Assembly: GCF_032598905.1 (NCBI RefSeq)
Contig: NZ_CP122458.1
Coordinates: 1,922,001 to 1,986,000 of the forward strand
Reading direction: 5' to 3'
DNA from: Streptomyces sp. 11x1
Lineage (GTDB): Bacteria > Actinomycetota > Actinomycetes > Streptomycetales > Streptomycetaceae
DNA length: 64,000 bases
Below the pieces are notes generated by a model. The model was not told the origin of the DNA. It searched no databases and saw only the letters and a program-made list of their open reading frames with translations. The translations under genes and the position numbers were made by a program. Numbering within the stretch: the first letter of the stretch is position 1; each line of letters opens with the position of its first letter. This document shows, piece after piece, positions 41,949-58,909 of this stretch.

Positions 41949-43416
41949 GCCGCGCTCCGGCGTTCGGCCGTCCGGTGGGCTCGGCCCGCTCGGGCGACGG
42001 CTGTTCGCCGCGTTCGCCTTGGTGGCGCTGGCATCCGTCGCCCTGCTGACGGCCGCGGCGCTCGTCGGAACCGACCGCGGGCTCAGCAGCGCCCATCAGG
42101 CCGACCGGCAGCGGACCGCCGACCGGGTGGCCACGGCCGCCGCCGACGCCTACCGGGCTGCGGGCGGCTGGGCATCGGCTGATCTGTCGGTCGCGCGTTC
42201 CGTCGCGACCGGCGCCGATGTGGTGCTCACGGTGCGCGACGCGGACGCCGAGGTGATTTCCGACGACTCGGGCTCCGGGTCGTCGGACGAGCACGGCATG
42301 CCCGGTTCCGGTCGCGGGCATCAAGGGCAGGGTGCCGGTTCGGGCCCCGGTGTGAGCGCTCCGGTAGTGGTCGACGGCCACACGGTCGGCTCCGTACGCC
42401 TCGTCTTCTCGGCCGGCTCCGCATCGGCGGGCCGGTCCGTCGCCTGGGGCTGGGTGGCCGCGGCCGCTGTTGGCGCGCTGGCTCTGGCGCTGGGCGTGAG
42501 CTGGTTCGTCACCCGGCGCCTGACGGCTCCCGTCGTCCGGGTCGCCGCAACCGCGCGTGCACTGGCCGCCGGGGACCGCGGCGCACGGGCCCGCATCGAC
42601 GCACCCGGTGAACTGGGCGACCTCGCCCACGCCTTCGACGCCATGGCCGACGACGTGAGCCACGCCGAACAGGCCCTCCACCGCCTCGCCGCCGACGTCG
42701 CCCACGAACTGCGCACCCCCCTGGCCTCGCTGCAGGCGGGGCTGGAGGAACTCCGCGACGGCTACACCGAGCCGACCCCGGACCGTCTTGCCTCCCTGCA
42801 CGACCAGGCCCTGCGGCTGGGCCGCATCATCGACGACCTCGGTGAACTCGCCGAGGCCGAGTCCGCCCGGATGTCCCTGCACCTGGCCGAGGTGGACCTG
42901 AACGCCCTGGCCGGCGCCGCCGTGGCCGAGCGGCAGGCCGAGCTGCGCACCGCCGGACTGGCCGTTCACACCGTCCCCGGCCCCGCTCCCCTGCCGGTCC
43001 GCGGTGACGCCGACCGGCTGCACCAGGCCCTCGGCAACCTGCTGAGCAACACCGCCCGTCACTGCCGCCCCGGTGACACCGTCACCGTCACCACGTCCTC
43101 CACGCCCGCCGAAGCCGTCGTCGAGGTGGTCGACACCGGCCCCGGTATCCCCGCCGACGAGTTGCCGCACGTCTTCGACCGGCTGTGGCGCGGGACCCGC
43201 TCTCGTGCCGGAGGCGGCAGCGGCATCGGCCTCGCCGTGGTCAAGGAGCTGGTCACCGCCCACGGCGGCACGGTCACCGCGGAGTCCGGACCGGGCGGCG
43301 GGACGCGGATGACGCTCCGGCTGCCCAGGGCCACGGCTCAGGGGCCACAGCTCGTTTCCGGCCCTGACACAAAGCCGCGCATTGCCTCTCGGGCAAATAC
43401 CCCCAGGGGTATTTGA
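41938..43416 (+). CDS. Sensor histidine kinase
   Basis: A 492-residue membrane kinase. Two transmembrane helices (about residues 22-44 and 169-191) bracket an extracytoplasmic sensor of about 120 residues, which includes a Gly/Ser/His-rich loop (DEHGMPGSGRGHQG) that could bind a metal (inference). HAMP follows, then HisKA with His256 in ADVAHELRTPLASL, then HATPase motifs NLLSNTARH, VDTGPGIPADE and GGGSGIGLAVVKEL. The GTG at 41938 overlaps the regulator's 3' end. The last codons and stop lie inside the first of the ten CstR-like operators (43397-43412), so the kinase end and the sulfur regulon promoter are physically merged. Confidence 0.92.
   Translation: MTREPRSGVRPSGGLGPLGRRLFAAFALVALASVALLTAAALVGTDRGLSSAHQADRQRTADRVATAAADAYRAAGGWASADLSVARSVATGADVVLTVRDADAEVISDDSGSGSSDEHGMPGSGRGHQGQGAGSGPGVSAPVVVDGHTVGSVRLVFSAGSASAGRSVAWGWVAAAAVGALALALGVSWFVTRRLTAPVVRVAATARALAAGDRGARARIDAPGELGDLAHAFDAMADDVSHAEQALHRLAADVAHELRTPLASLQAGLEELRDGYTEPTPDRLASLHDQALRLGRIIDDLGELAEAESARMSLHLAEVDLNALAGAAVAERQAELRTAGLAVHTVPGPAPLPVRGDADRLHQALGNLLSNTARHCRPGDTVTVTTSSTPAEAVVEVVDTGPGIPADELPHVFDRLWRGTRSRAGGGSGIGLAVVKELVTAHGGTVTAESGPGGGTRMTLRLPRATAQGPQLVSGPDTKPRIASRANTPRGI
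43397..43412. promoter_or_regulatory. CsoR/CstR-like operator 1
   Basis: ATACCCCCAGGGGTAT, an almost perfect palindrome, overlaps the histidine kinase stop codon and lies 72 bases before the first rhodanese gene. Confidence 0.8.
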
Positions 43417-43452
43417 CGCTCACCTCCAAACCGCCGTACTCTCGCCAGAGAG

Positions 43453-43468
43453 ATACCCCCGGGGGTAA
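43453..43468. promoter_or_regulatory. CsoR/CstR-like operator 2
   Basis: ATACCCCCGGGGGTAA, with a perfect 14-bp core palindrome, lies 16 bases before the rhodanese start and 56 bp after operator 1. Confidence 0.8.
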
Positions 43469-43484
43469 TTGAGGAGGCAAGGAA

Positions 43485-43811
43485 GTGGCTCGTGAAGTGA
43501 CACAGGAAGCATTCGCGGCGGCCTGGGCCGAGGGAGCGCTCGTGGTCGACGTACGGGAAGCCGACGAGTACGCCGCCGGGCACGTGCCCGGCGCCCGCCT
43601 GATGGCGCTGCGCACCGTCCCCACGCGCTGCGGCGAACTGCCCAGCGGCCGCCCGGTGTTCGTGATCTGCGCCAGCGGAAACCGCAGCAAGTCGGCTGCC
43701 GACTGGATGAACACCTACGGCATCGACGCCTACTCCGTGACCGGCGGCACCGGTGCCTGGGCCCGCGCCGGACGTCCCGTCGCGGCCGGTTCCCACGAGC
43801 ACGCCGCCTGA
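43485..43811 (+). CDS. Single-domain rhodanese
   Basis: A 108-residue sulfurtransferase. The CDC25-like family motif VVDVREADEYAAGHVPGARL is present, and the active-site loop is CASGNRS with Cys62 as persulfide carrier. A normal size for a stand-alone rhodanese that moves sulfane sulfur between thiols. A GTG start follows GAGGAGG closely. It is the first gene behind operators 1 and 2 and is followed after 46 bases by a sulfide:quinone-reductase-like gene, so the two are one unit. Confidence 0.9.
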   Translation: MAREVTQEAFAAAWAEGALVVDVREADEYAAGHVPGARLMALRTVPTRCGELPSGRPVFVICASGNRSKSAADWMNTYGIDAYSVTGGTGAWARAGRPVAAGSHEHAA

Positions 43812-43857
43812 CCCCGCCCGACACCCGTACGACGGCCAGCCGGAAAGGAGCACCGCC

Positions 43858-45087
<1,230 letters not shown>

Positions 45088-45092
45088 CCGGT

Positions 45093-45170: not shown

Positions 45171-45186
45171 ATACCCCCCTGGGTAT
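45171..45186. promoter_or_regulatory. CsoR/CstR-like operator 3
   Basis: ATACCCCCCTGGGTAT, 31 bases before the persulfide dioxygenase-rhodanese gene start. Confidence 0.8.
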
Positions 45187-45217: not shown

Positions 45218-46603
45218 ATGTTCTTCGCCCAGTACTACCTCGACTGCCTCTCCCAGGCGTCTTACATGATCGCCGACGAAAGCACCGGCAAGGCCGTCGT
45301 CGTCGACCCGCGCCGCGACGTCTCCGAATACCTCACCGACGCCGCCGAACACGGTTTCACCATCGAGGCGGTCATCAACACCCACTTCCACGCCGACTTC
45401 CTCGCCGGCCACCTGGAACTCGCCGACCGGACCGGCGCCTGGATCGGCTACGGGCAGCGCGCCGAGGCCGAATACCCCATCCACAAGCTGGTCGACGGCG
45501 AACGCATCACCCTCGGCGACGTCCAGCTCCAGATCCTCGAAACCCCAGGCCACACCCCGGAGTCGATCAGCGTCCTGGTGTACGAGCACGCCGACGACAC
45601 CCTCCCCTACGGGGTGCTGACCGGCGACGCGCTGTTCATCGGCGACGTCGGCCGGCCCGACCTGCTCGCCTCGATCGGCGTCACCGCCGACGAACTCGGC
45701 CGCATGCTCTACAACACCATCCAGCACAAGTTGATGGACCTCCCGGACGCGGTCCGGGTCTTCCCCGCGCACGGCGCCGGATCCGCCTGCGGCAAGAACC
45801 TCTCCACCCAGCGCCAGTCCACCATCGGCGAGCAGCGCGCCACCAACTACGCCTGCCGGCCCATGAGCGAGGAGAAATTCGTGTCGCTGGTGACCGAGGG
45901 CCAGCCGTCCGCGCCCGCCTACTTCGTCTACGACGCCATCCTCAACCGCAAGGAACACGGCCTGTTCGACGCGGCCGCAGCACCCCGCCCGCTGTCCGTG
46001 GAGGAGTTCATGGAGCGGCGCGCGCTCGGAGCGGTCATCCTCGACGCCCGTTCCCCGCAGGACTTCACGCCCGGGTATCTGCGCGGCTCGATCAACGTCC
46101 CCGCCGACGGTCGCTTCGCCGAGCAGTCCGGCATGGTCGTCGCCCCCGAACAGGACGTCCTCGTCATCGCGCCGCAGGACCGCGAGGAGGAGGTCGTCAC
46201 CCGGCTCGCCCGGATCGGCTTCGACAAGGTCGGCGGCTACCTGCGCGAGCCCGAGGGAGCCTTCCCCGCCCTGGCCGACGAGATGGAACAGGCCAGTCGC
46301 CTGACCGCCGACGACCTGCGCCGCCTGCTGGACGGCGACGCACCCCCGCTGGTGCTCGACGTGCGCAACACCGCCGAGCGCGAAGAGGGCTTCATCGAGG
46401 GCTCGTTGCACATCCCGCTGGCCGAACTCGCCCGCCGTATCGAGGAGATCCCGGCCGGCCGGCCGCTGGTCGTCCACTGCGCGGGCGGCCACCGCTCCTC
46501 CATCGCCGCCAGCCTGCTGCGCCACAAGGGCCGCCCCGACGTCTCCGACCTGCTCGGCGGATACGGCGCCTGGCTCGCCCTGCCCGCAGCCGCCGACGTC
46601 TGA
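45218..46603 (+). CDS. cstB: Persulfide dioxygenase-rhodanese fusion (CstB-like) 1
   Basis: A 461-residue, three-domain protein. Residues 1-235 are a metallo-beta-lactamase fold of the ETHE1/persulfide dioxygenase group, with metal residues His56, His58 and Asp60 in NTHFHADF, His112 in ETPGHTPES and His185 in PAHGAG, and Cys191 close by in SACG. A first rhodanese domain (about 255-355) lacks its cysteine (VIAPQDREE), so it is structural. The second (about 362-455) has active Cys421 in VHCAGGHRSS. The layout matches staphylococcal CstB, which oxidises persulfide to thiosulfate. It heads a unit with rhodanese, exporter and CsoR-family genes. Confidence 0.9.
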   Translation: MFFAQYYLDCLSQASYMIADESTGKAVVVDPRRDVSEYLTDAAEHGFTIEAVINTHFHADFLAGHLELADRTGAWIGYGQRAEAEYPIHKLVDGERITLGDVQLQILETPGHTPESISVLVYEHADDTLPYGVLTGDALFIGDVGRPDLLASIGVTADELGRMLYNTIQHKLMDLPDAVRVFPAHGAGSACGKNLSTQRQSTIGEQRATNYACRPMSEEKFVSLVTEGQPSAPAYFVYDAILNRKEHGLFDAAAAPRPLSVEEFMERRALGAVILDARSPQDFTPGYLRGSINVPADGRFAEQSGMVVAPEQDVLVIAPQDREEEVVTRLARIGFDKVGGYLREPEGAFPALADEMEQASRLTADDLRRLLDGDAPPLVLDVRNTAEREEGFIEGSLHIPLAELARRIEEIPAGRPLVVHCAGGHRSSIAASLLRHKGRPDVSDLLGGYGAWLALPAAADV

Positions 46604-46681: not shown

Positions 46682-47263
46682 ATGAACCTCCGCACCGACA
46701 CACCACGCCTCGAACCCGCCGCCCTGCGCGACCTGACCCGATCCGGCGAGGGCCCGCGCCTGCTGGACGTGCGCACGCCCGGCGAGTTCCGCACCTCCCA
46801 CATCCCCGGCTCCTACAACGTCCCCCTCGACACCCTGCGCGAACACCGCGCCGAACTGCTCCACCACCTCGACGAGGACGTCATACTCATCTGCCGCTCC
46901 GGGGCCCGCGCCGCCCAAGCCGAACAGGCCCTCGCCGAAGCAGGACTGCCCAACCTGCGCGTCCTCGACGGCGGCGTCGTGGCCTGGGAGTCCTGCGGCG
47001 GCCCGCTCACCCGCGGCCCGGAGCGCTGGGACCTGGAACGCCAGGTCCGACTCGTCGCCGGAACCCTCGTCCTGCTGACCGGCGTCGCGGGCCTGTTCGT
47101 GCCCGGACTGCACCTGATCGGCACCGCCGTCGGTGCCGGGCTGACCATCGCCGCGCTCACCAACACCTGCGCCATGGGAATGCTGCTGTCGAAGCTGCCC
47201 TACAACCGCGGCCCGCGCACCGACCTCGACACGGTCGTCGCCGCCCTGCGGGGCACGCCATGA
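46682..47263 (+). CDS. Membrane-anchored rhodanese (rhodanese + DUF2892) 1
   Basis: A 193-residue protein. Residues 10-110 are a rhodanese with LLDVRTPGEFRTSHIPGSYN and Cys71 in ILICRSGARAAQAE. Residues about 122-175 hold two transmembrane helices (VRLVAGTLVLLTGVAGLFVP, HLIGTAVGAGLTIAALTNTC) of the DUF2892 type, ending in ALTNTCAMGMLLSKLPYNR. The same layout is found in E. coli YgaP. It would hold persulfide at the membrane next to the TSUP exporter whose gene overlaps its stop (ATGA). Confidence 0.9.
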   Translation: MNLRTDTPRLEPAALRDLTRSGEGPRLLDVRTPGEFRTSHIPGSYNVPLDTLREHRAELLHHLDEDVILICRSGARAAQAEQALAEAGLPNLRVLDGGVVAWESCGGPLTRGPERWDLERQVRLVAGTLVLLTGVAGLFVPGLHLIGTAVGAGLTIAALTNTCAMGMLLSKLPYNRGPRTDLDTVVAALRGTP

Positions 47264-48231
47264 TCGCCGTCGTCATCGCCGCGTCCCTGCTCATCGGCGT
47301 CAGTCTCGGTGTACTGGGCGGCGGCGGGTCCATCCTGACCGTGCCCATCCTGGTCTACCTGGCCGGCATGGAGACCAAAGAGGCCATCGCCACCTCGCTG
47401 TTCGTCGTCGGCGTCACCAGTGCCGCCGGCGTCGTCTCCCACGCGCGGGCCGGACGCGTCCGCTGGCGTACCGGGCTGCTGTTCGGCCTGGCCGGCATGA
47501 CCGGCGCCTACGCGGGCGGACGGCTCGCCGAGTTCATCCCCGGCGGCATCCTGCTCATCGCCTTCGCCCTCATGATGATCGCCACCGCCGTCGCCATGAT
47601 CCGCGGTCGCCGCCAGACGCCGAAGAAGGCCCACCACGAACTGCCCGTCCCGCATGTCCTGCTCGACGGCATCGTCGTGGGACTGGTCACCGGGCTGGTC
47701 GGCGCCGGTGGAGGCTTCCTCGTCGTCCCCGCGCTCGCCCTGCTCGGCGGGCTGCCGATGACCGTCGCGGTCGGCACCTCCCTGCTGGTCATCGCCATGA
47801 AGTCGTTCGCCGGGCTGGCCGGATACCTCGCGAGCGTGCACATCGACTGGGGCTTCGCCGCCCTCGTCACAGCGACCGCCGTCGTCGGCAGCCTCATCGG
47901 CGGCCTGCTCGCCGGGCGCATCCCGCAGGACGCGCTGCGCAAGTCCTTCGGCTGGTTCGTCGCCGTCATGGGCGTCTTCGTCCTCAGCCAGCAGACCGGC
48001 TCCGATCTGCGCCACACCCTGCTGACCAGCCCCTGGACATGGGCCTCCGTGGCCGCGACGGCAGGGGTCGCGTTCAGCTGGTACATGCTGGGGCGCTCCG
48101 ACCGAACGCCGGAGCGGACGGGCGACACCCCGGCGGTGCCGGATGGCGCAACCGAACCTGTGGTCTCGCTCGCCGTCCGTGCCGAGACCGCGCGCGGCAA
48201 CGGCGTCAGCGCGTCGCCGCAGGACACCTAG
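47260..48231 (+). CDS. TSUP (TauE/SafE) family sulfur-compound exporter 1
   Basis: A 323-residue membrane protein with about eight transmembrane helices. Typical TSUP repeats are VLGGGGSILTVPILVYLAGM at the N-terminus and VGAGGGFLVVPALALLGGLP in the second half. Family members move sulfite, thiosulfate or other sulfur anions. Staphylococcal cst loci carry a TauE partner, which supports export of the oxidation products of the CstB-like enzyme (inference). Its ATG overlaps the membrane-rhodanese stop codon. The C-terminal 50 residues are polar and cytoplasmic. Confidence 0.88.
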   Translation: MIAVVIAASLLIGVSLGVLGGGGSILTVPILVYLAGMETKEAIATSLFVVGVTSAAGVVSHARAGRVRWRTGLLFGLAGMTGAYAGGRLAEFIPGGILLIAFALMMIATAVAMIRGRRQTPKKAHHELPVPHVLLDGIVVGLVTGLVGAGGGFLVVPALALLGGLPMTVAVGTSLLVIAMKSFAGLAGYLASVHIDWGFAALVTATAVVGSLIGGLLAGRIPQDALRKSFGWFVAVMGVFVLSQQTGSDLRHTLLTSPWTWASVAATAGVAFSWYMLGRSDRTPERTGDTPAVPDGATEPVVSLAVRAETARGNGVSASPQDT

Positions 48232-48573
<342 letters not shown>

Positions 48574-49091: not shown

Positions 49092-49697
49092 ATGGACGCG
49101 GCGACCTGGGACGAGCGCTACCGCGGCAGGGAACTGGTCTGGAAGGCGGAGCCCAACCGCTTCGTCGCCGAGGAGCTGGCCGGTCTGAAGCCGTCCGGAC
49201 GGGCGGTGGACCTCGCCGCCGGCGAAGGCCGCAACGCGGTCTGGCTCGCCGAACAGGGCTGGGAGGTGGACGCAGTCGACTTCTCCGCCGTGGCCCTGGA
49301 GAAGGCCGGGCGGCTGGCCGTCGACCGCGGTGTACGGCTGCACACCGTCCACGCCGATCTCACCCTCTGGGCGCCCGCGGAGGCGACGTATGACCTGGCG
49401 TTGATCGCGTACCTGCACCTGCCGTGGCCAGAGATGGCCGAGGTGCTGCCCCGGGCCGCCGCTGCCGTCCGCTCGGGCGGCACCCTGTTGCTCGTCGGTC
49501 ACGACGCGGCCAACCCCGAGCACGGATACGGCGGCCCGCAGGACCCGCGCGTGCTCTACACCGCCGAGCAGGTCGCCGACCTGTGGCGGCCGTACGCCGA
49601 CATCCTGCGGGCCGAGACGGCCTCCCGGCGGGTGACCGACGCCGAGGGCGGCAGCCGCACGGCCCTCGACGCACTCGTCCACGCCGTGCGGAGATGA
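49092..49697 (+). CDS. Class I SAM-dependent methyltransferase (TehB-like)
   Basis: A 201-residue Rossmann methyltransferase starting MDAATWDERYRGRELVWKAE. SAM motif I is AVDLAAGEGRNAVWLAEQGW, followed by VDAVDFSAVALEKA with the acidic ribose ligand. This start and glycine motif fit the TehB/thiopurine-methyltransferase-like group that often acts on small inorganic or organic thiols, selenium or tellurium species (family knowledge; the substrate here is inference). It begins 10 bases after the four-cysteine protein gene and probably ends the operon that starts at operator 3. Confidence 0.8.
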   Translation: MDAATWDERYRGRELVWKAEPNRFVAEELAGLKPSGRAVDLAAGEGRNAVWLAEQGWEVDAVDFSAVALEKAGRLAVDRGVRLHTVHADLTLWAPAEATYDLALIAYLHLPWPEMAEVLPRAAAAVRSGGTLLLVGHDAANPEHGYGGPQDPRVLYTAEQVADLWRPYADILRAETASRRVTDAEGGSRTALDALVHAVRR

Positions 49698-49766: not shown

Positions 49767-49782
49767 ATACCCCTCCGGGTAT
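49767..49782. promoter_or_regulatory. CsoR/CstR-like operator 4
   Basis: ATACCCCTCCGGGTAT, 79 bases before the small hypothetical gene at 49862. Confidence 0.78.
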
Positions 49783-49861: not shown

Positions 49862-50152
49862 ATGGCGATGGCAGGACATGACCGACCCCCGGCGAACGAG
49901 GACAGTTGCGTCGTGACCGCCTGCGGGCGCAGGATCGCCGTGCGATTCCTGCGGCTCGCACCCGCGGAGCGACCCATCGGCCGGGTCACCTTGGACGTGG
50001 GCCGCGACCAGGGCGGCGAGCCGGGCGCATGGGCGGCACTCACCGCCGGCGAGGCACGTGACCTGGCCCACCTGCTCCTCCTGCACGCCGGCCTCGCCGA
50101 GCACGGCACCGAACCCGTCGGACCGACACGCGAGGACTCACCCAGGTACTGA
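49862..50152 (+). CDS. Small hypothetical protein under a CstR-like operator
   Basis: A 96-residue protein with no recognised family. It starts MAMAGHDRPPANEDSCVVTA, has a beta-rich middle (RRIAVRFLRLAPAERPIGR, VTLDVGRDQGGEPG) and a helix TAGEARDLAHLLLLHAGLAE. It holds two cysteines early (Cys16, Cys21). GGAGGAG lies about 11 bases upstream of the ATG. Its own operator suggests a role in the sulfur response, but nothing in the sequence tells which. The 3' end overlaps the convergent PIG-L gene by 15 bases. Confidence 0.55.
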   Translation: MAMAGHDRPPANEDSCVVTACGRRIAVRFLRLAPAERPIGRVTLDVGRDQGGEPGAWAALTAGEARDLAHLLLLHAGLAEHGTEPVGPTREDSPRY

Positions 50153-50682
50153 CTCGGGCGCGTGGAGGAAGGACGTACCGAACTCGGTGTCCAGCCGTTC
50201 CTCCACGTCCCGCGGCAGGGTCCACCCCAGGACGACGACGCCCGTCCCGTGGGCGGCGAGCAGCACGGCGCTGGTGGCCCGTTGCTGGTCCCGGTGCCCG
50301 GTGGCGCCCCCCGTGTCGAACACCCGCAGGTGGGTGGGACGGTGCTCGCCGATGAGGCGGGTCACCTCCGCGGCGGGCCGGGGCACCGGCACGTCGTCGA
50401 GCGCCCCGTCCGGGTGCCCGGCCAGTTCCACGCGCTCGACACCCAGTTCCCTTGCCGCGCTGGCGAGTTCGCCCGCCCGCACGGTGCGCAGGTCGCCGGG
50501 CCTGCCGTGCAGGGTGGACGCCTCGCCATGGGTGAAGCAGAGGCGGCCGTGGGCACACCGGAGGCGGACAGCAGGGCGAGCAGGCCACCCAGGCCGAACG
50601 ACTCGTCGTCGGGGTGGGCGACCACCGCCGACACCCGCCGCATCCCGTCCGGCAGGCCGCGCCCGGCACCTGTGCCGGCCAT
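50138..50682 (-). pseudogene. PIG-L family deacetylase, frameshifted
   Basis: A LmbE/PIG-L-type metal-dependent deacetylase in two frames. The first part has the metal motif VVAHPDDESFGLGGLLALL. Near 50545 the frame breaks: one extra base would restore PTAALCFTHGEASTLHGRPG, and the second frame then continues with VRAGELASAARELGVERVEL and HLRVFDTGGATGHRDQQRAT, the usual second metal region. The MshB/mycothiol-conjugate amidase group belongs to this family, which would suit a thiol-stress locus (inference). It begins one base after the DsrE-like gene and would be the last gene of the SQR2 operon. A sequencing error is possible. Confidence 0.75.
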
Positions 50683-50683: not shown

Positions 50684-51157
50684 TCAGGTGTAGATGATCT
50701 GGCTGCCGGCCGCGTGCTCGTAGAACTCGCCGACGGTGATGATGCCCTGGACCTGCTCGACCAGGTCGTCCTTGTCGAGTTCGAAGAGGTCGACGGATGC
50801 CTTGCAGGCGTAGATGCCCGCGCCGGTGTCGGCGATCATCTCGATGAACTCCGGGATCGGAGGGATGTCGAGCTTGTCCATCTTGCGTTCCATGTAGCGG
50901 GTGACCAGGTCCGGGACCCCCGGCATGCCGCCCAGCAGAGTCGGCAGGTGCAGGCCGGGGTTGCCGACGGTGGCCAGCTTGATGTGCTCCCAGCGCTTCT
51001 TCGTGATGGCGTCCAGGCCGAAGAAGGTGAAGAACAGGTCGGCCTCGATGCCTTCGGCGCGGGCGCCGTTGGCCATGATCAGGGCGGGGTAGATCCCTTC
51101 CAGGGAGCCCTTGGAGACGATGATCGAGACCTTCTCGATCGTGGCGGCACCGGTCAT
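50684..51157 (-). CDS. DsrE/DsrF-like sulfur-transfer protein
   Basis: A 157-residue DsrE-like protein with the DsrE/TusD fold: an N-terminal beta strand and glycine turn (KVSIIVSKGSLEGIYPALIM), then the conserved cysteine Cys118 in GAGIYACKASVDLF. Such proteins carry persulfide and pass it to TusE/DsrC. It is longer than TusD and resembles the DsrE2/peroxiredoxin-like group found beside SQR and rhodanese genes. It is 15 bases downstream of the TusE/DsrC-like gene and co-transcribed with it and SQR2. Confidence 0.85.
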   Translation of the reverse strand: MTGAATIEKVSIIVSKGSLEGIYPALIMANGARAEGIEADLFFTFFGLDAITKKRWEHIKLATVGNPGLHLPTLLGGMPGVPDLVTRYMERKMDKLDIPPIPEFIEMIADTGAGIYACKASVDLFELDKDDLVEQVQGIITVGEFYEHAAGSQIIYT

Positions 51158-51172: not shown

Positions 51173-51490
51173 TCAGATGCAGCCGCGGGGCTTGGGGATC
51201 CCGGCGATCTTCGCGGCCGTCTTCGCCGGGCCCTTGGGGAAGAGCTGGTAGAGCTCCTTGACGCCTACACCGGATGCCTTGCCGAGGACGCGCACGGTGG
51301 GGCCGGTGCCCTTGGCCGCGTACTGCTCGCGCATGAAGCGGATGACCGTCCAGTGCCGGTCGGTCAACTGCTCGATGCCGGACTCCTTGGCGATCTGTTC
51401 GGCCATCGGCTCGGTCCACCGGTCGGGATCGGTGAAGAAGCCCTCGTCGTCGATCGGGACCGGGGTGTCGGCGTAGGTGATGGTGGGCAT
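51173..51490 (-). CDS. TusE/DsrC-family sulfur carrier with a single C-terminal cysteine
   Basis: A 105-residue DsrC/TusE-family protein: DEGFFTDPDRWTEPMAEQIA near the start, LTDRHWTVIRFMREQY in the middle, and the flexible arm KIAGIPKPRGCI at the end. The penultimate cysteine, Cys104 (CysA), is kept. The second cysteine of true DsrC, 11 residues earlier, is alanine (Ala93), so it matches TusE-type carriers that receive sulfur rather than DsrC substrate of sulfite reductase. Encoded between SQR2 and DsrE-like genes. Confidence 0.88.
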   Translation of the reverse strand: MPTITYADTPVPIDDEGFFTDPDRWTEPMAEQIAKESGIEQLTDRHWTVIRFMREQYAAKGTGPTVRVLGKASGVGVKELYQLFPKGPAKTAAKIAGIPKPRGCI

Positions 51491-51544: not shown

Positions 51545-52786
51545 TCAGTCGAATACGCGGCGTTTGCCGTGCTCCGGCATCGCCGAGCCGATCCCGGGCA
51601 GCTCCCGGCCGGGCAGCAGGCTGTGCCAGTACAGCCACTCGAAGGCGAGCTTGCCGAGATGGTTCGCGTGCGACTCCTTCAGCAGCGGCAGACCGACCGG
51701 ACCCGGGAAGTGACCGGGCAGCGGCTCGGTGTCGTAGTTGAAGTCGATCAGCAGCGCCCTGTGGAAGCCGGTCTCCACGAAGCAGTTGGCATGCCCGTCG
51801 AAGGAGGCGTCCAGCGGCTGCCCGGCGAGGAAGCGGCCGATGTTGTGCACCAGCACCTCACCCTCGAAGTGGGCCACCGACCCCGCCTTGGACGCCGGCA
51901 GACCCGCCGCATCGCCGATCGCGAACACCTCGGGACGGCCCGGGAGTTGCAGGGTGTGCGGGTCGACGGGGACGAAGCCGAGTTCGTCGCCCAGACCCTC
52001 GGAACGCTCCACGTACTCCGCGCCCCCGTGCAGCGGCACCACGACGGCCAGGTCGAAGGGCACCTCGCGCTCGTCGTACGACACCAGCCGCCCGCGTTCG
52101 CCGTCGACCTCGCCGAGGGTGAACTCCGTGACCAGCTCGATGCCCTTGTCCCTGAGCAGCCCGCCCAGCGCCCTGGCGGCGACCGGCTTGGTGAACGCCC
52201 CGTCGAGCGGGGTGGCGTACGTCAGCTCGACCTGGCCCCTGATGCCCCGGTGCCGGAAGTACCAGTCGGCCAGGAACGCGAACTCCAAGGGCGCGACGGG
52301 GCACTTGAGGGGCAGGTCGGCGACATCTATTGCCAGGCGGCCACCCTCGAAGCGTTCCAGCGCGTCGTGCAGACCGACGGCGCCGGGCAGGTCGTAGAAG
52401 GTGAAGACCTTCTCACCCCAGCCGGGGCCGGTCAGCCCCTCGGTCTCCTCCGGCAGCAGCCTGGCCCCGGTGGCGACCACGAGGACGTCGTACGGCAGCC
52501 GGATGCCACCGGCGAGGTGCACGGTCCGCGCGTCCAGGTCGACCCGATCGACGCTCGCCTGCTTGTAGTCGACGGCCGCGTCCAACTGCCGGGGACGGGA
52601 ACGCACCAGGTGATGCGGCTGGGCCAGCCCGAACGGCACGAAGAGCAGGCCGGGCTGGTAGACGTGGTCGCCGTCCTGGTCGACCACGGTGATCCGGTGC
52701 TCGCTCGCACCGTGTGTGCGGCACAGCCGGTTCGCCGTCATGGTGCCGGCGGTTCCGCCGCCGAGAACCACTATGTGTTTGCCCAT
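51545..52786 (-). CDS. Sulfide:quinone oxidoreductase-like flavoprotein 2
   Basis: A 413-residue FAD enzyme starting MGKHIVVLGGGTAGTMTANR. The pair of redox cysteines is kept: Cys162 in LPLKCPVAPLEFAFLADWYF and Cys335 in GHANCFVETGFHRALLIDF. The C-terminal FAD segment is FAIGDAAGLPASKAGSVAHF. It differs from SQR1 in length and in the residues around the cysteines, so it is a separate type rather than a recent copy. It is the first gene of a minus-strand unit (SQR2, TusE, DsrE, PIG-L) behind operator 5, which suggests that SQR-made persulfide is loaded onto these carriers. Confidence 0.88.
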   Translation of the reverse strand: MGKHIVVLGGGTAGTMTANRLCRTHGASEHRITVVDQDGDHVYQPGLLFVPFGLAQPHHLVRSRPRQLDAAVDYKQASVDRVDLDARTVHLAGGIRLPYDVLVVATGARLLPEETEGLTGPGWGEKVFTFYDLPGAVGLHDALERFEGGRLAIDVADLPLKCPVAPLEFAFLADWYFRHRGIRGQVELTYATPLDGAFTKPVAARALGGLLRDKGIELVTEFTLGEVDGERGRLVSYDEREVPFDLAVVVPLHGGAEYVERSEGLGDELGFVPVDPHTLQLPGRPEVFAIGDAAGLPASKAGSVAHFEGEVLVHNIGRFLAGQPLDASFDGHANCFVETGFHRALLIDFNYDTEPLPGHFPGPVGLPLLKESHANHLGKLAFEWLYWHSLLPGRELPGIGSAMPEHGKRRVFD

Positions 52787-52843: not shown

Positions 52844-52859
52844 GTACCCACCCGGGTAT
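52844..52859. promoter_or_regulatory. CsoR/CstR-like operator 5
   Basis: GTACCCACCCGGGTAT, 57 bases upstream of the SQR2 start on the minus strand. Confidence 0.72.
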
Positions 52860-52919: not shown

Positions 52920-52935
52920 ATACCCAGCAGGGTAT
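52920..52935. promoter_or_regulatory. CsoR/CstR-like operator 6
   Basis: ATACCCAGCAGGGTAT, 76 bp from operator 5 and 126 bases before the OsmC gene. The two sites share the divergent promoter region. Confidence 0.75.
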
Positions 52936-53061: not shown

Positions 53062-53514
53062 ATGACCGGCAGCACACCTCAGACCCTCGGCACGGGCCAC
53101 CCTCAGTCCGAGGACATGCATCGCATGGAGGTCATTCACGTCGAAGGCGACGCCTACACCGTGGACGTCCGCGGACACCGCCTCCATGTCGACCAGCCCC
53201 TGGAGGCGGGCGGCACGGACACCGCACCCACCCCCACCGAGCTCTTCGCGGTCTCCGTGGCCACCTGCGTGGCGTTCTACGCGGGCCGCTACCTCCACCG
53301 GCACGGCCTGCCCCGCACCGGGCTGCGCGTCCGCACGGACTTCACCATGGCCACCGACCGCCCGGCCCGGGTCGCCTCCCTGCGCCTTGTCATCGTCCCG
53401 CCGCCGGAACTGCCCGAGCAGCGGCGTGCGGCCCTGCTGGCCGTGGCCTCGCACTGCACGGTCCACAACACCCTCCACCAGCCGCCCCAGATCGACATCG
53501 AGCTGACGCCATGA
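53062..53514 (+). CDS. OsmC-family protein
   Basis: A 150-residue OsmC/Ohr-fold protein with both redox cysteines: Cys69 in VSVATCVAFYAGRYL and Cys132 in VASHCTVHNTL. The family reduces organic hydroperoxides and, in some members, handles persulfides or polysulfides. The location in this regulon makes a sulfur role reasonable (inference). An ATG with GAGAGGGG upstream. Its stop codon overlaps the remains of the class V aminotransferase gene (ATGA). Confidence 0.87.
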   Translation: MTGSTPQTLGTGHPQSEDMHRMEVIHVEGDAYTVDVRGHRLHVDQPLEAGGTDTAPTPTELFAVSVATCVAFYAGRYLHRHGLPRTGLRVRTDFTMATDRPARVASLRLVIVPPPELPEQRRAALLAVASHCTVHNTLHQPPQIDIELTP

Positions 53515-54831
53515 GTACGACCTCGGCGACGACGAGATCCTGGAGGGCCCCTACGGCCCGAACCGGATCGCCTACGCCGACTACACCGCATCCGGACGCT
53601 CCCTGGACTTCGTCGAGGACTTCGTCCGTGAGCAGGTGCTGCCGCGCTACGGCAACACCCACACCGAAAGCTCCAGCACCGGGCTGCAGACCACCCGGCT
53701 GCGCGAGGACGCCCGCCGGATCATCCGGGACGCGGTCGGCGGCACCGAGCGCGATCTGGTGATCTTCTGCGGATCAGGGGCCCGGTCAACAAGCTGATCG
53801 GCATCCTCCAGCTGCGCCGCCCGGACCGCCCGGCGCCGGACGAGCGGCCGGTGGTGTTCGTGGGCCCCTACGAGCACCACTCCAACGAACTGCCCTGGCG
53901 CGAATCCATCGCCGACGTCGTGGTCATCGACGAGGACGCCGACGGCCACATCGATCTCACCGAACTCGAAGCAGGGCTACGGCGGTACGCCGACCGTCCA
54001 CTGCTGATCGGCAGCTTCTCCGCCGCGTCCGACGTCACCGGCATCCTCACCGACACCGACCGCATCACGCGTCTGCTGCACGTGTACGGCGCGCCGCCCT
54101 TCTGGGACTACGCGGCGGCGGCACCGTACATCCCGATCCAGCCGAGAGCTCGCCGGGGGCCGGGAACCACAAGGACGCGCTGTCCCTGTCCCCGCACAAG
54201 TTCGTCGGCGGTCCGCAGACCCCGGGGATGCTGGTCGTCCGGCGCGAGCTGGTGCGCAACCGGGTGCCCGCGGCTCCCGGCGGCGGCACGGTCGCCTTCG
54301 TCGACCCGCTCGGCCACCGCTATCTCGACGACCCGGTGGCCCGGGAGGAGGGCGGCACCCCCGCGATCGTGGAGTCCATCCGGGCCGGACTGGTCTTCGC
54401 CCTCAAGCAGGCGGTGGGAACCGAGACCATCCAGGTCGCGGAGGAACGCCACTGGCGGCGCGCGCTCTCGGTCCGGGAGAGCAACCGCGGCATCGAGATC
54501 CTCGGCGACCACCACGCCCGTCGGCTGTCCATCGTCTCTTTCCGGATCCGCCACGGAGAGCACTCCTGTCTGCACCACAACTACGTCGTGGCGACGGCAT
54601 CAAGCCCGGCTGGGCCCGCGTCAACTTCAACTACTCCGCTCCGTCTGCCCGCGATCACCGACTGGGCGAAGAGGCGCCGGCCGGTCAACTCGCCCGTGCC
54701 CGCGCGGTACTGGCCACTCGTCCGACCGGCTCGACGACGGCCCCACCGGGCTGCCGGCCGACTTCGAGCGCATGCGCTGGTTCCCGCTCCCGCCCGCCTG
54801 CGTGGAACAAACCCGCACCGGCACCGGTTGA
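53513..54831 (+). pseudogene. Class V aminotransferase / cysteine-desulfurase-like gene, decayed
   Basis: A PLP-enzyme gene in at least three frames and with an internal deletion. Frame a (53513-53780) reads DLGDDEILEGPYGPNRIAYA and FCGSGA. After a small deletion, frame b (53785-54150) reads VNKLIGILQLRR and FVGPYEHHSNELPWRES. Frame c (about 54165-54590) has the PLP lysine in LSLSPHKFVGGPQTPGM and GEHSCLHHNYVVA. After a missing stretch comes GIKPGWARVNFNYS. The start codon of the original gene is also missing, since the reading begins inside OsmC's stop. The intact ancestor would have been a sulfur-mobilising or related aminotransferase. Confidence 0.8.
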
Positions 54832-54846: not shown

Positions 54847-54862
54847 ATACCCCACCGGGTAT
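54847..54862. promoter_or_regulatory. CsoR/CstR-like operator 7
   Basis: ATACCCCACCGGGTAT, 20 bases before the thioredoxin start codon. Confidence 0.8.
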
Positions 54863-54882: not shown

Positions 54883-55254
54883 ATGCCGACCGTCGAACTG
54901 ACCAAGGACAACTTCGAGGAGACCGTCACCGGCTCCGACATCCTGCTGATCGACTTCTGGGCCGCCTGGTGCGGACCGTGCCGGATGTTCGGCCCCGTCT
55001 ACGACAAGGCGTCCGAGCGCCACCCGGACATCGTCTTCGGCAAGGTCGACACCGAGGCGCAGCCCGAACTCGCCGGCGCCTTCCGGATCTCCTCCATCCC
55101 CACCCTGATGGCCGTCCGCGACCGGACAGTCCTGTATTCGCAGCCGGGCGCGCTGCCGCCGCAGGCGCTGGAGGAACTCATCGGGAAGATCCGCGCCGTC
55201 GACATGGACGACGTGCGCCGGAAGGCCGCCGCGGGCTCTGCGGAGGCGAGCTGA
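54883..55254 (+). CDS. Thioredoxin
   Basis: A 123-residue thioredoxin with the WCGPC active site (Cys30, Cys33) in LLIDFWAAWCGPCRMFGPVY and the cis-proline loop ISSIPTLMAVRD. The C-terminus has about 15 extra polar residues beyond the fold. Thioredoxins reduce protein persulfides and rhodanese intermediates, which suits its own operator here. GGAGGGAAA lies before the ATG. It is a single-gene unit, with a convergent rhodanese gene 47 bases downstream. Confidence 0.92.
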   Translation: MPTVELTKDNFEETVTGSDILLIDFWAAWCGPCRMFGPVYDKASERHPDIVFGKVDTEAQPELAGAFRISSIPTLMAVRDRTVLYSQPGALPPQALEELIGKIRAVDMDDVRRKAAAGSAEAS

Positions 55255-55301: not shown

Positions 55302-55889
55302 TCAGCGAGTGCGAAGAGCAGCGAGCGCGGCGTCGAGGTCGGCCGCGCGCGGGCGGTTGTGCGGCAGCTTGCCGAGCACGACCGCCATGCCGCAGGTGTC
55401 GGTGAGAGCGGAGAAGACCAGGCCGCCAGCGACACCGGCCGAGATCAGCAGGAGGGCCGGATGCAGGAGCAGGCCGAGGACGAGGCCGAGGAGCACCAGG
55501 GCGCCGGCCGTGAACCGGACCTGGCGTTCCATGCTCCAGCCGGAACGGGTGTCACAGGCCGCCGGTGTGTGCAGATCGTGCCCCTCGGCGGCCCAGGCAC
55601 CGGTGCCGCCGACGAGGGTCGCCGTGGTGACGCCCTGCTCGGCCAGGAGCTTGCAGGCGTTCTCGGAGCGGGCGCCTGAGGCGCACACGACGAGGACGTC
55701 GCCGCGCTCGGCGGCGTGCCGTATCTCCGGCAGCGCCCGTCGGACGTGGTCCAGGGGGATGTTGAGGGCGCCGGGCAGGTGGCCCGAGGCGTACTCGGCG
55801 GGCGTGCGCACGTCGATGACGGTCAGCTCGTGCAGCCGGGTGCGGGCCTGGTCCGCGCCGAGGGCGACGGGAGCGGGGGTGTTCGTCAT
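55302..55889 (-). CDS. Membrane-anchored rhodanese (rhodanese + DUF2892) 2
   Basis: A 195-residue paralogue of the protein at 46682-47263 with the same domain order: rhodanese (TVIDVRTPAEYASGHLPGAL, Cys69 in LVVCASGARSENACKLL) followed by two DUF2892-type transmembrane helices (RFTAGALVLLGLVLGLLLHP, ALLLISAGVAGGLVFSALTD) and the tail CGMAVVLGKLPHNR. It is transcribed away from the CstR gene, and operator 8 lies in the 81-base divergent region, so both should be repressed together. Confidence 0.9.
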   Translation of the reverse strand: MTNTPAPVALGADQARTRLHELTVIDVRTPAEYASGHLPGALNIPLDHVRRALPEIRHAAERGDVLVVCASGARSENACKLLAEQGVTTATLVGGTGAWAAEGHDLHTPAACDTRSGWSMERQVRFTAGALVLLGLVLGLLLHPALLLISAGVAGGLVFSALTDTCGMAVVLGKLPHNRPRAADLDAALAALRTR

Positions 55890-55907
55890 GGCAGGTGTGA
55901 TCCTTAA

Positions 55908-56258
<351 letters not shown>

Positions 56259-56279
56259 AGGTGCTCGCGGCGGCGGCCG

Positions 56280-57026
56280 TCACAGCAGCGCGTCGATCAG
56301 CATGAAGGCCGCCACGGCCAGCAGCACCAGCGCGAAGATCCGCTGCAGCGTGCGCCCGGAGACCTTCACGGCCAGCCGCTTGCCGTCCCAGGCGCCGAGA
56401 ATCGCGGCCCCGATGAACGGGCCGACCACCGCCCAGTCCAGCCCCTCGACCGTGCCGGCCCGCATCGACAGTGCAGCCAGCGAGTTGACGGTGATGACCA
56501 GCAGGCTGGTGCCCACCGCCTCCCGCATCCGCATGCCCAGCACCCCCACCAGCGCCGGTACGGCGAGGAAGCCGCCGCCGACACCCAGGACACCGGTGAC
56601 CGCACCGAGGCCGGCACCGGCCGCAGCCGCCCGCCCCGGCCGTACCGTCACGGCCCCCTCCGTAGCGGGCCGGGACCGCAGCATACGCACGGCGGCCGCT
56701 CCCGCGACGACACCGAACGCGGCCGTGAGTACGCCCGCCGGAACGCGTCCGGCGAGCGCGCCGCCCAGCATCGCCGGGCCGATCCCGGCCGCCGCGAACA
56801 GCAGCCCGGTACGCCAGTTCACGTGCTCGTCGCGAGCGTGCGCGACCAGCGCGGTGACCGAGGTGAGCGTGACGATGACCAGACTCGCGGTCGTCGCCCC
56901 GACCGGGCTGAAGCCGAGCAGGTAGATCAGCGCCGGGACGGCCAGGACACTGCCGCCGCCCCCCAGCGCACCGAGCGCCAGACCGATCACGGCCCCGGCG
57001 CCCAGGGCGAGGAGGAGAGCGCTCAC
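56280..57026 (-). CDS. TSUP (TauE/SafE) family exporter 2
   Basis: A 248-residue membrane protein with about eight helices and the two TSUP repeats (LGALGGGGSVLAVPALIYLL, TGVLGVGGGFLAVPALVGVL). It is shorter than exporter 1 and lacks its polar C-terminal tail. The GTG at 57026 overlaps the stop of the rhodanese gene (GTGA), so the two are translationally coupled. It is the last gene of the unit starting at operator 9 and the likely outlet for sulfur anions from the second dioxygenase module (inference). Confidence 0.87.
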   Translation of the reverse strand: MSALLLALGAGAVIGLALGALGGGGSVLAVPALIYLLGFSPVGATTASLVIVTLTSVTALVAHARDEHVNWRTGLLFAAAGIGPAMLGGALAGRVPAGVLTAAFGVVAGAAAVRMLRSRPATEGAVTVRPGRAAAAGAGLGAVTGVLGVGGGFLAVPALVGVLGMRMREAVGTSLLVITVNSLAALSMRAGTVEGLDWAVVGPFIGAAILGAWDGKRLAVKVSGRTLQRIFALVLLAVAAFMLIDALL

Positions 57027-57409
57027 GCGACCGTGCCGTTCCGACCACCCGCGTCGACCACCGGCAACCCCGCCTTGGCCCACTCCTGCATCCCGCCGAC
57101 CACGTCGACGGCCTCCGAGCCGCGGGCGACGAGCAGTTCGGCGGCCTGCCGGGACCGGTTGCCGGAGCGGCAGATCACGATCAGGGGCCGCGCCTGCGCA
57201 GGTGCGGGCAGCCCCGCCCCGGCGGCCAGCGCCGACAGGGACAGGTGCACGGCGCGCGGCGCATGACCCGCCTGCCACTCGTAGGGCTCGCGCACGTCCA
57301 GCAGTACGGCGTCACCGCCGCCGTCGGCGTTGTCGTGCCCGGTGCGTGCGGCTGCCTCCTGCGCACTCACGCGCCCCGGGCCGCTGCGGGCCCGTCGGAA
57401 GATGCTCAT
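57023..57409 (-). CDS. Single-domain rhodanese 2
   Basis: A 128-residue sulfurtransferase with VLLDVREPYEWQAGHAPRAV and active Cys80 in IVICRSGNRSRQAAELL. The N-terminal 20 residues are a basic extension not seen in the rhodanese at 43485. Located 69 bases after the second persulfide dioxygenase fusion gene and overlapping exporter 2, in the same unit. Confidence 0.9.
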   Translation of the reverse strand: MSIFRRARSGPGRVSAQEAAARTGHDNADGGGDAVLLDVREPYEWQAGHAPRAVHLSLSALAAGAGLPAPAQARPLIVICRSGNRSRQAAELLVARGSEAVDVVGGMQEWAKAGLPVVDAGGRNGTVA

Positions 57410-57478
57410 CTCGGTTTCTGGCTCCTGTTCGTCACGTCGTCAGGGAAGATCGGCCGGCTCCCGCGGCGGCCGGCGTCG

Positions 57479-58834
57479 TCAGGGGGTCCGCAGGGCGAGT
57501 CCCGCCTTCTCGGCCGCGTCGAAGGAGTCGTCCACGGCGACGACGTCACGGCCCGAGGCGGCCAGCAGGGAGGCGGCGATCGCGGCGCGCATTCCGCCCG
57601 CGCAGTGCACCCACACCTGCCCGTCTGGCACCTCGTCGAGACGGCGGTGCAAGGTGTGGACCGGGATGTGCACCGAGCCCTCGACATATCCGTCGGCCCG
57701 CTCCGACGTCCGGCGCACGTCCAGGACGACGACGTCCGCGCCCCGTCCCGCAAGGTCGGCGAAGGTGCCCCTCGGGAAGGAAACCGGCTCCTCGCCCTCG
57801 CGCACCCAGTCGGCCGGGCCGCCCGTGGCCGCGGCGGCGGGGCGGTCGATGCCCACCCGGACCAGCTCCCGCTGGGCGGCGGCGAGTTGCGCGGGCGACT
57901 CGGCGAGCAGCGTGACCGGCTTGCCCCACGGGATCAGCCAGGCCAGATACGTGGCGAGCTGCCCCTCCACCTCGAAGTTGAAGGACCCGGAGACGTGCCC
58001 GGCGGCAAACGCGACCCGGTTGCGCAGATCGACCACCCACTCCCCCGCGTCCAGCCGCTCGGCGATCTCGTCGGCGTCCGCGACGGCGGGCGGGGTCAGG
58101 TCGACGGGCGCGGGTCCGGCGGCGTTGGCCGGGCCCATGTGCGTGTAGTAGGCGGGCACGTCGTCCAGGCCGGCCAGCAGATCGGCGACGAAGCTGTCGA
58201 CATCCCGGGTGAGCGCCTCGTTGGACACCTTCTCCTTGCCGATGGTCGTGTCACTGCCCTCGGCCTGGGAGGACGAGCAGAAGCTGCCGAAGCCGTGCGT
58301 GGGCAGTACGGCGGTGTCGTCCGGGAGCTCGGCGGCCAGCCGGTGCGCGGACGCGTGCTGGGCACGGGCCAGGCGCTCCGTCAGCCGCGGCTCGACCAGG
58401 TCGGGCCGGCCGACGGTGCCGATGAGCAGGGACCCGCCGGTGAACACGGCGACCGCCGTGCCGTTCGCCTCCAGTACGTAGGAGGTGTGGTGCGGGGTGT
58501 GCCCGGGGGTGGCCAGCGCGCGCAGCGCCAGGCCGGTGTCGAGGGCCGTGACATCACCGTCGCGCACAGGTGTCCGCTCGAACGACACCCGCGCCCCGGC
58601 CGGCACGAGGTAGTCCGCACCCGCGATCCGGGCGAGCTCCAGGCCACCGGTGACGTAGTCGTTGTGCACGTGTGTCTCGACCACGTGCGAGATCCGCACC
58701 CCGCGCCGAGCCGCGGCCGCGATCATCTGATCGACGTCGCGGGGCGGATCGACCGCGACGGCCGTTCGCTCACCGCCGGCGAGATAGCCACGGTTGCCGA
58801 GCCCGGACACCTCGATCGTGTCGACGAAGAACAC
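57479..58834 (-). CDS. Persulfide dioxygenase-rhodanese fusion 2
   Basis: A 451-residue protein with the same order as the CstB-like protein at 45218: metallo-beta-lactamase fold with His55, His57 and Asp59 in ETHVHNDYVTGG and PTHGFGSFCS, an inactive rhodanese domain (TLLAESPAQLAAAQRE), and an active one with Cys411 in VWVHCAGGMRAAIAA. The overall similarity to copy 1 is moderate, and the active-site loops differ (HVHNDY rather than HFHADF), so these are distinct subtypes. A GTG start, 24 bases from operator 9. First gene of a unit with rhodanese 2 and TSUP exporter 2. Confidence 0.88.
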   Translation of the reverse strand: MFFVDTIEVSGLGNRGYLAGGERTAVAVDPPRDVDQMIAAAARRGVRISHVVETHVHNDYVTGGLELARIAGADYLVPAGARVSFERTPVRDGDVTALDTGLALRALATPGHTPHHTSYVLEANGTAVAVFTGGSLLIGTVGRPDLVEPRLTERLARAQHASAHRLAAELPDDTAVLPTHGFGSFCSSSQAEGSDTTIGKEKVSNEALTRDVDSFVADLLAGLDDVPAYYTHMGPANAAGPAPVDLTPPAVADADEIAERLDAGEWVVDLRNRVAFAAGHVSGSFNFEVEGQLATYLAWLIPWGKPVTLLAESPAQLAAAQRELVRVGIDRPAAAATGGPADWVREGEEPVSFPRGTFADLAGRGADVVVLDVRRTSERADGYVEGSVHIPVHTLHRRLDEVPDGQVWVHCAGGMRAAIAASLLAASGRDVVAVDDSFDAAEKAGLALRTP

Positions 58835-58858
58835 GCTGTGCTCCCTTCCAGCGAAGAA

Positions 58859-58874
58859 TTACCCCAGGGGGTAT
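58859..58874. promoter_or_regulatory. CsoR/CstR-like operator 9
   Basis: TTACCCCAGGGGGTAT, 24 bases upstream of the second dioxygenase fusion (minus strand). Confidence 0.78.
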
Positions 58875-58893
58875 GCCTCCGAAGGTAACACAA

Positions 58894-58909
58894 GTACCCC
58901 GGGGGGTAT
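58894..58909. promoter_or_regulatory. CsoR/CstR-like operator 10
   Basis: GTACCCCGGGGGGTAT, 35 bp from operator 9 and 100 bases before the DUF302 gene; together they cover the divergent promoter region. Confidence 0.8.

Follow-up and report, generated by a model that had tools for sequence, protein, structure and literature searches.

The cst operon of Staphylococcus aureus joins CstR, TauE, CstA, CstB and sulfide:quinone oxidoreductase (SQR) in a logic that recurs, with a larger gene set, on contig NZ_CP122458.1 of Streptomyces sp. 11x1. We analysed the 64,000 nucleotides at positions 1,922,001 to 1,986,000 of this contig (the window), in which a preliminary description made from the letters alone had proposed a persulfide and sulfide regulon on the staphylococcal model. 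The staphylococcal operon comprises fewer genes, with a fused CstA, and we know of no TusE/type III SQR cassette, OsmC or DUF302 in it. Computation supports a CstR-type persulfide and sulfide regulon larger than the staphylococcal one, but points to a different model, as the closest precedent is ScCsoR of Streptomyces coelicolor, which uses the same 16-bp operator (PMC7533328). With a probability of roughly 0.86, we read the locus as an enlarged Streptomyces CstR-type persulfide regulon under a repressor here termed CsoR1.

The ScCsoR (SCO0620) circuit shares with the locus a CsoR-family repressor with Cys37 and Cys66, the 16-bp operator ATACCn6GGTAT, a persulfide dioxygenase (PDO)-rhodanese fusion, TauE and a rhodanese (PMC7533328). 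ScCsoR binds this operator before pdo and between csoR and the rhodanese gene, two operators stand before pdo, like the pair at 58859 and 58894 here, and polysulfide releases the repressor via Cys37, with Cys66 assisting (PMC7533328). Compared by its published description and not by protein sequence, the circuit differs in having four genes and no SQR (PMC7533328), whereas the locus here adds two SQRs, a second PDO, TusE, DsrE2, thioredoxin (Trx), OsmC, DUF302 and the small protein small96, arranged in ten units and accompanied by a second cluster. In the YrkD/NreBC system of Bacillus licheniformis a CstR-like repressor is described over DsrE, rhodanese, two PDOs, TauE, thioredoxin and SQR (PMC9918477), so that the DsrE-like carrier, put forward earlier as a new regulon member, is not new in kind, and nor is thioredoxin. 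The Bacillus system differs by TusA in place of TusE, by NreBC amplification and by its single 11-gene cluster, and OsmC and DUF302 are not among the genes listed for it (PMC9918477). The copper-sensing CsoR of Streptomyces lividans belongs to the same protein family and uses the same half-sites, ATACCC and GGGTAT, but differs in its five-base spacer, in its targets copZA and csoR and in its sensing of Cu(I) (PMC3902906). Thermus TTHA1953 was rejected as the closest model because its operator, TACNNTACNNNNGTANNGTA, differs (PMC10318464), and what is described for AdpA and the trx genes of S. coelicolor looks like a separate layer (PMC9952706). The core circuit is already published, and from a known genus; what is new here is the enlarged membership, the contrast in spacing with the copper system and a class-wide SQR-TusE-DsrE2 cassette.

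CsoR1 matches PF02583 with 86 bits (cut-off 22.8) and has its cysteines at exactly positions 37 and 66, matching Cys37/Cys66 of ScCsoR; among 81 relatives Cys37 is kept in 80 and both cysteines in 78. As in the ScCsoR circuit, 16-bp operators of the ATACCn6GGTAT type precede pdo, csoR and rhodanese genes. Among 199 genomes of Streptomyces, counting that of the window, a CstR-type protein is encoded in 119, a distant family member only in 79 and neither in one, presence being defined by a best E-value below 1e-20, a threshold set after seeing the gap from about 1e-26 to 2e-11. The exact motif is found in 97 of the 119 CstR-bearing genomes versus 3 of the 80 others (Fisher p ~1e-30), and the exact-motif sites number 248 in the former and three in the latter.

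A pattern scan of the window confirmed all ten palindromes of the preliminary description at their positions (Table 1). Six match RTACCCCNNNGGGTAT exactly (43397, 45171, 49767, 54847, 55939, 58894) and four with one mismatch (43453, 52844, 52920, 58859). With up to two mismatches on both strands, the window holds 21 matches, whereas 100 shuffled versions gave 1.0 on average and 5 at most; twenty of these represent the ten palindromes and the remaining one (2023) lies outside the set. Operator 1 overlaps the 3' end of a histidine-kinase open reading frame (ORF) upstream. The earlier estimate of at least seven units is exceeded by our count of ten gene starts, each with its nearest operator 16-126 bp upstream. 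A genome-wide motif scan, which had been suggested as a check on confinement to the locus, gave 19 sites for ATACCCN4GGGTAT with at most one mismatch in the 10.67-Mb genome versus two for the reversed pattern: ten in the window, five at C1:532570-540911, one at 2462126 and three scattered. The sites are thus concentrated at the locus and not confined to it, the five-site cluster lying 1.4 Mb away.

The operators are conserved in other Streptomyces loci. We examined the best 80 of 532 loci around csoR1 relatives, all from Streptomyces and selected by proximity to csoR1, with a few sharing strain or species. They contain 249 sites versus one for the reversed control, and 242 of the 249 have one of 24 reference genes starting no more than 350 bp downstream, versus 9.6% of random positions; only 4 of 178 site clusters are without a nearby reference gene. 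Within this distance a site precedes csoR1 in 75/80 copies, pdo2 in 40/40, rhodTM2 in 45/53, trx in 11/11, pdo1 in 9/10, small96 in 9/10, osmC in 8/9, sqr2 in 6/6, duf302 in 15/19 and rhod1 in 6/7, with zero in the control for each. Across seven promoter regions, identity reaches 0.91-0.99 in the operator columns and 0.51-0.76 in the remaining ones, for example 0.96 versus 0.58 upstream of rhod1 (7 sequences), 0.98 versus 0.74 between sqr2 and osmC (7 sequences) and 0.97 versus 0.72 between pdo2 and duf302 (14 sequences). Operators also stay with their units despite shuffled gene order (L053, L151).

These counts bear on the regulon members that had been proposed as new. TusE and DsrE2 are retained, with tusE and dsrE2 behind the site that precedes every sqr2 copy, and so is DUF302 with its 15 of 19 Streptomyces copies. 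The P-type ATPase unit was dropped: it has no operator of its own and is rarely beside the locus, with two copies in the 80 loci and a site at neither. This ATPase (60391-62973) has an HMA domain and the motif TCPDALG, at a place where copper pumps usually carry CPC or CPH. In two loci (L041 and L055), a peroxiredoxin-like ORF, recognised by eye and absent from the window, is divergent from small96 over the same operators and is a candidate for an extra regulon member.

Several observations weigh against a regulon under CsoR1. None of the NCBIfam models assigns CsoR1 to CstR, RicR coming closest with 46 bits (cut-off 175), and five CsoR-family matches in the genome offer more than one candidate occupant per site. 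The exact site is absent from 22 of the 119 CstR-bearing genomes and present in three of the 80 that lack CstR. Promoter-like pairs were not found in a sigma-70 scan. Unit-internal genes rarely have a site of their own in the 80 loci (tsup2 3/46, rhod2 4/37, amtV 2/9, sqr1 2/5, hyp99 1/3), and none was found before mtase (0/6), csoR2 (0/3) or the ATPase gene (0/2). Finally, the product of pdo2 has TGGSLLIG in place of TGD, with Gly for Asp in 39 of 40 copies (one unreadable by pattern); without the usual metal-ligand Asp, activity of this protein cannot be taken for granted from the sequence. A site was likewise absent in the 80 loci before the unit-internal genes rhodTM1, dsrE2 and tusE (0/6 each) and tsup1 (0/5), and before hk (0/4) and rr (0/6). 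The product of pdo1 keeps TGDALF in 10 of 11 copies (one unreadable), and ScPDO, which can be set beside PDO2 by description and not by sequence, has been purified and its PDO activity assayed (PMC7533328).

Both CsoR-family proteins noted earlier belong to the family, but the one encoded at 48277-48573, CsoR2, carries Arg where the sensor Cys37 would be and is for this reason not classed as a persulfide sensor. It falls into a clade of 24 (support 100/99; best 120 of 419 homologs) in which all members lack Cys37 and retain Cys66, with Arg at position 37 in 23 and Gly in one. The clade was read from the printed tree, while a label test gave two changes with the Arg-bearing P0012 unlabelled, and P0007, P0014, P0026, P0068 and P0101 were left out of the tree. 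Decay of a paralog without a role is the likelier explanation, which we favour to a modest degree. Pairwise ratios of nonsynonymous to synonymous substitution rates (dN/dS) with the window copy are relaxed (0.36-0.82), the copy in L020 is damaged, its matched frame containing a stop and lacking a 20-residue segment that includes position 37, and P0068 and P0101 show in-frame losses; the exchange of Cys for Arg is nevertheless kept in 23 of the 24 clade members, which are otherwise mostly conserved. The opposite possibility is that CsoR2 is a functional, persulfide-blind repressor, which would be induced with the regulon, occupy the same operators without being releasable and act as a brake that limits induction. 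The C37S variant of ScCsoR retains DNA binding and is not released by polysulfide (PMC7533328), and by analogy CsoR2 should bind and not release; the clade-wide loss of Cys37 with retention of Cys66 and the dN/dS of 0.23-0.43 among members other than the window copy are in line with such a role. Constraint is weaker, however, than in Cys-type paralogs (0.01-0.31 in 28 pairs; 0.05-0.23 for csoR1), the second helix region of the window copy also contains a Pro, the segment around position 37 is missing in two homologs and Cys66 in one, and the Arg type is rare (3 of 30 places read, out of 34 at E <1e-30 in 392 Streptomyces genomes). Given this weak constraint the brake is treated as no more than a rival, possible but unlikely.

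It is also conceivable that trx, osmC, duf302 and small96, the outer units, came along as passengers, with sites left over from duplication within a sulfur island. The five-site cluster elsewhere in the genome (L016) resembles, by eye, a partial copy with an SQR2-like fragment, and two genes within the window (aminotransferase and PIG-L) are broken. Yet the sites before the outer units are conserved islands, occur at all 11 trx and 8 of 9 osmC copies and persist where gene order is shuffled (L053, L151), which makes this explanation improbable.

Spacer length probably distinguishes the operators of the CsoR1 regulon from those of copper control, whose CsoR repressors characteristically bind Cu(I) through a Cys-His-Cys ligand set. 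In the 80 loci, exact half-sites are separated by four bases (N4) 63 times, by five (N5) once and by no other spacer of 0-10 bases; the window has five exact N4 sites and no exact N5 site of the copper-CsoR type. N5 sites occur in 199/199 Streptomyces genomes and N4 sites almost solely with CstR. In the window's genome, six N5 sites were found with at most one mismatch (control 1): two precede copZ-copA, one is beside a multicopper oxidase gene, one stands before the gene for a His-rich DUF4396 protein and, judged by eye, one before that of a secreted-looking family-less protein and one before a PhoU/Pit-like pair, so that three of six adjoin genes of clear copper families. We rejected as highly improbable, on spacer length and co-occurrence, the proposal that the ten sites are copper-CsoR operators of a copper or metal-stress island with adjacent HMA ATPase, DUF302 and two-component genes: S. 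lividans copper CsoR does bind nearly identical half-sites (PMC3902906), copZ-copA and multicopper oxidase genes with ATACCC-N5-GGGTAT sites do lie 2.6-3.5 kb past the window end, and a P-type ATPase is encoded at 60391-62973, but the window spacer has four bases versus five in the S. lividans consensus, N5 occurs in every genome and N4 in 97/119 with versus 3/80 without a CstR-type protein, and the N4 sites accompany sulfur genes and not the ATPase. Spacing probably keeps the CsoR1 regulon apart from that of the copper regulator, with its five bases between the same half-sites, and a single base may thus separate persulfide from copper control. Such a one-base separation is not stated in the titles and abstract openings of the part of the literature covered. 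The site before the PhoU/Pit-like pair (L103, G000:C1:5643955) lies about 156 bp upstream of it, and the same 17-mer occurs in G013.

The sqr2-tusE-dsrE2 cassette extends beyond the genus. SQR2 exceeds the cut-off of NF049943 'type III sulfide quinone reductase, selenoprotein subtype', but has HxxC in an open frame and no selenocysteine, and hence represents the Cys form of this selenoprotein-named family. The motif of the selenoprotein subtype is reported as HxxU (PMC13188914), and we infer that the HxxC of SQR2 occupies the corresponding position. The products of tusE and dsrE2 score below the cut-offs of the equivalogs NF008562 (tRNA thiolation; 83.7 bits, cut-off 191) and NF047629 'DsrE2' (90.6 bits, cut-off 210), respectively, and are therefore filed as family members and not as named equivalogs. 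TusE ends in PRGCI, with a penultimate C-terminal Cys as the single Cys there and Ala at the upstream Cys position of DsrC, according to the familiar DsrC-family rule for that position. A genome search for DsrAB gave one weak match per model, below cut-off (38.7/392.85 bits for dsrA, 31.6/341.5 bits for dsrB). TusA has a single match above its cut-off, far from the locus.

Among 296 genomes of the class, 31 contain tusE (one weakly), and 30 loci were taken. In 27 of the 30, sqr2, tusE and dsrE2 occur in the same order on one strand (order and strand being all that was compared); two short loci (L120, L135) show tusE-dsrE2 alone, and in a third (L136) a CsoR gene adjoins tusE-dsrE2. An N4 site with at most one mismatch is present in 5 of the 28 non-Streptomyces 3-kb loci (control 0; no N5 site), located upstream of the cassette in L111, L112, L116 and L136 and between dsrE2 and trx in L127. 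Eight of twelve larger non-Streptomyces regions contain an N4 site (control 0), which in seven adjoins regulon-type genes, but these regions were hand-picked from the 28, some for known sites, and the unbiased count is 5/28; with a looser pattern the reversed control matched once (L139). The site is directly before the cassette in L141, L142, L144 and L147 and before neighbouring units in L145, L146 and L148. L148 brings together tsup, pdo, rhodanese, two sites, trx, duf302, CsoR, sqr2, tusE and dsrE2, and L145 CsoR, rhodanese, pdo, osmC, dsrE2, tusE and sqr2. The cassette is class-wide, and the CstR-type operator accompanies it in a minority outside Streptomyces. In the part of the literature seen on SQR with TusE, DsrE or selenoprotein, no account of this cassette was found. 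A wider proposal, to which we give even odds, is an actinomycete one-base spacer code, in which paralogous CsoR-family repressors would use the same half-sites with four bases for persulfide and five for copper, and in which a conserved SQR-TusE-DsrE2 relay, wired on the four-base code in part of the class, would deliver the sulfane sulfur arising from sulfide oxidation to protein carriers, with no involvement of DsrAB.

While operator architecture, conservation and regulator-operator co-occurrence were obtained by computation, the binding, effector and enzyme activities in the following model are predictions from homology and comparative genomics. CsoR1 would sit on the 16-bp ATACCC-N4-GGGTAT operators and keep about ten transcription units off until sulfane sulfur modifies its Cys37 and releases it from DNA, as published for ScCsoR. 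SQR1 and SQR2 would oxidise H2S to persulfide, from which sulfane sulfur could be relayed via TusE-DsrE2, tied to SQR2, and via the rhodaneses. PDO1 and PDO2 would convert low-molecular-weight persulfides to sulfite, and TSUP1 and TSUP2 would export sulfite or thiosulfate. Thiol repair would fall to Trx and OsmC, perhaps along with DUF302 and small96, the small Cys protein. The published four-gene circuit would thereby become a defined regulon that is predictable from sequence, with the TusE/DsrE2 relay, DUF302, OsmC and the small Cys protein as candidate new members, and it raises the question whether one base of spacing separates two paralogous sensors within one cell. In S. coelicolor, antibiotic production and sporulation are both influenced by sulfane sulfur (PMC7533328), which makes the larger set relevant to them as well. 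The class-wide cassette suggests a context for the TusE family other than DsrAB or tRNA thiolation, and one that is directly testable.

Pfam bore out the gene inventory of the preliminary description: two SQR-like proteins, two metallo-beta-lactamase/rhodanese fusions, four further rhodaneses, two TauE/TSUP proteins, DsrC/TusE, DsrE2, thioredoxin, OsmC, DUF302 and two CsoR-family proteins (Table 1). The sqr1 product matches human SQOR (chain 6mp5_A) over its full length with 342 bits (residues 15-407), which places it with the type II SQRs. The small96 family has 121 homologs, exclusively from Streptomyces where the source names the organism, with an invariant Cys21 in T-C-G-R (51-row alignment); its AlphaFold2 model has a mean predicted local distance difference test score of 62, too low for a fold search.

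Table 1. Operators and genes of the locus, in window positions; identities compare operator columns with the remaining columns of the upstream alignment
Feature	Position	Strand	Remarks
operator 1 ATACCCCCAGGGGTAT	43397..43412		72 bp 5' of rhod1
operator 2 ATACCCCCGGGGGTAA	43453..43468		16 bp 5' of rhod1
rhod1, single-domain rhodanese	43485..43811	+	PF00581
sqr1, human-SQOR-like sulfide:quinone oxidoreductase	43858..45087	+	PF07992; TTG start chosen by us
operator 3 ATACCCCCCTGGGTAT	45171..45186		31 bp 5' of pdo1; identity 0.94 vs 0.51, 11 sequences
pdo1, persulfide dioxygenase-rhodanese fusion	45218..46603	+	PF00753+PF00581; TGDALFIG metal loop
rhodTM1, rhodanese + YgaP-like membrane segment	46682..47263	+	PF00581, PF11127
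tsup1, TauE/SafE-family exporter	47260..48231	+	PF01925
csoR2, CsoR-family paralog	48277..48573	+	PF02583; Arg at sensor Cys37 position, Cys66 kept
mtase, S-adenosylmethionine (SAM) methyltransferase	49092..49697	+	PF13649; membership uncertain
operator 4 ATACCCCTCCGGGTAT	49767..49782		79 bp 5' of small96; identity 0.91 vs 0.63, 9 sequences
small96, ~96-aa family	49862..50152	+	no Pfam match
dsrE2, DsrE2-like sulfur carrier	50684..51157	-	PF13686, 104 bits, cut-off 25
tusE, TusE/DsrC-family carrier	51173..51490	-	PF04358; TIGR03342, 101 bits, cut-off 53.5
sqr2, type III SQR	51545..52786	-	NF049943, 559 bits, cut-off 525
operator 5 GTACCCACCCGGGTAT	52844..52859		sqr2/osmC intergenic
operator 6 ATACCCAGCAGGGTAT	52920..52935		sqr2/osmC intergenic
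osmC, OsmC-like thiol protein	53062..53514	+	PF02566
class-V aminotransferase / SufS-like relic, broken	53512..54831	+	intact paralog L016:12418-14112
operator 7 ATACCCCACCGGGTAT	54847..54862		20 bp 5' of trx; identity 0.99 vs 0.68, 12 sequences
trx, thioredoxin	54883..55254	+	PF00085
rhodTM2, rhodanese + YgaP-like membrane segment	55302..55889	-	PF00581, PF11127
operator 8 GTACCCCGAGGGGTAT	55939..55954		rhodTM2/csoR1 intergenic; identity 0.97 vs 0.76, 47 sequences
csoR1, CstR/ScCsoR-type repressor (predicted)	55971..56258	+	PF02583; Cys37 + Cys66
tsup2, TauE/SafE-family exporter	56280..57026	-	PF01925
rhod2, rhodanese	57023..57409	-	PF00581
pdo2, persulfide dioxygenase-rhodanese fusion	57479..58834	-	PF00753+PF00581; Gly at expected metal-ligand Asp
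operator 9 TTACCCCAGGGGGTAT	58859..58874		pdo2/duf302 intergenic
operator 10 GTACCCCGGGGGGTAT	58894..58909		pdo2/duf302 intergenic
duf302	59010..59414	+	PF03625

Behind osmC, the class-V aminotransferase gene is present in the window as a broken relic. Its intact paralog in L016 scores 98 bits to a solved cysteine desulfurase and 117 bits against the SufS model (cut-off 475) and is thus SufS-like but below the SufS cut-offs; the motif GCSCAGP is kept in 8 of 9 relatives. Behind dsrE2, a PIG-L/LmbE gene (50138-50682) is broken in the window and is a 226-aa open frame in L041. PIG-L proteins include mycothiol enzymes, and a link of this gene to mycothiol persulfide is possible.

The second cluster (L016, G000:C1:526000-545000) has the appearance of a second, partial regulon copy with a small96 paralog, the intact SufS-like aminotransferase gene, CsoR, DUF302 and five operators; the short fragment that resembles SQR2, judged by eye, is at L016 11820-12035. 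A third CstR-like protein with both cysteines is encoded elsewhere (L097, G000:C1:2459600-2464600), adjoining a rhodanese and an MMPL transporter, and the operator at 2462126, with one mismatch, lies over the MMPL start.

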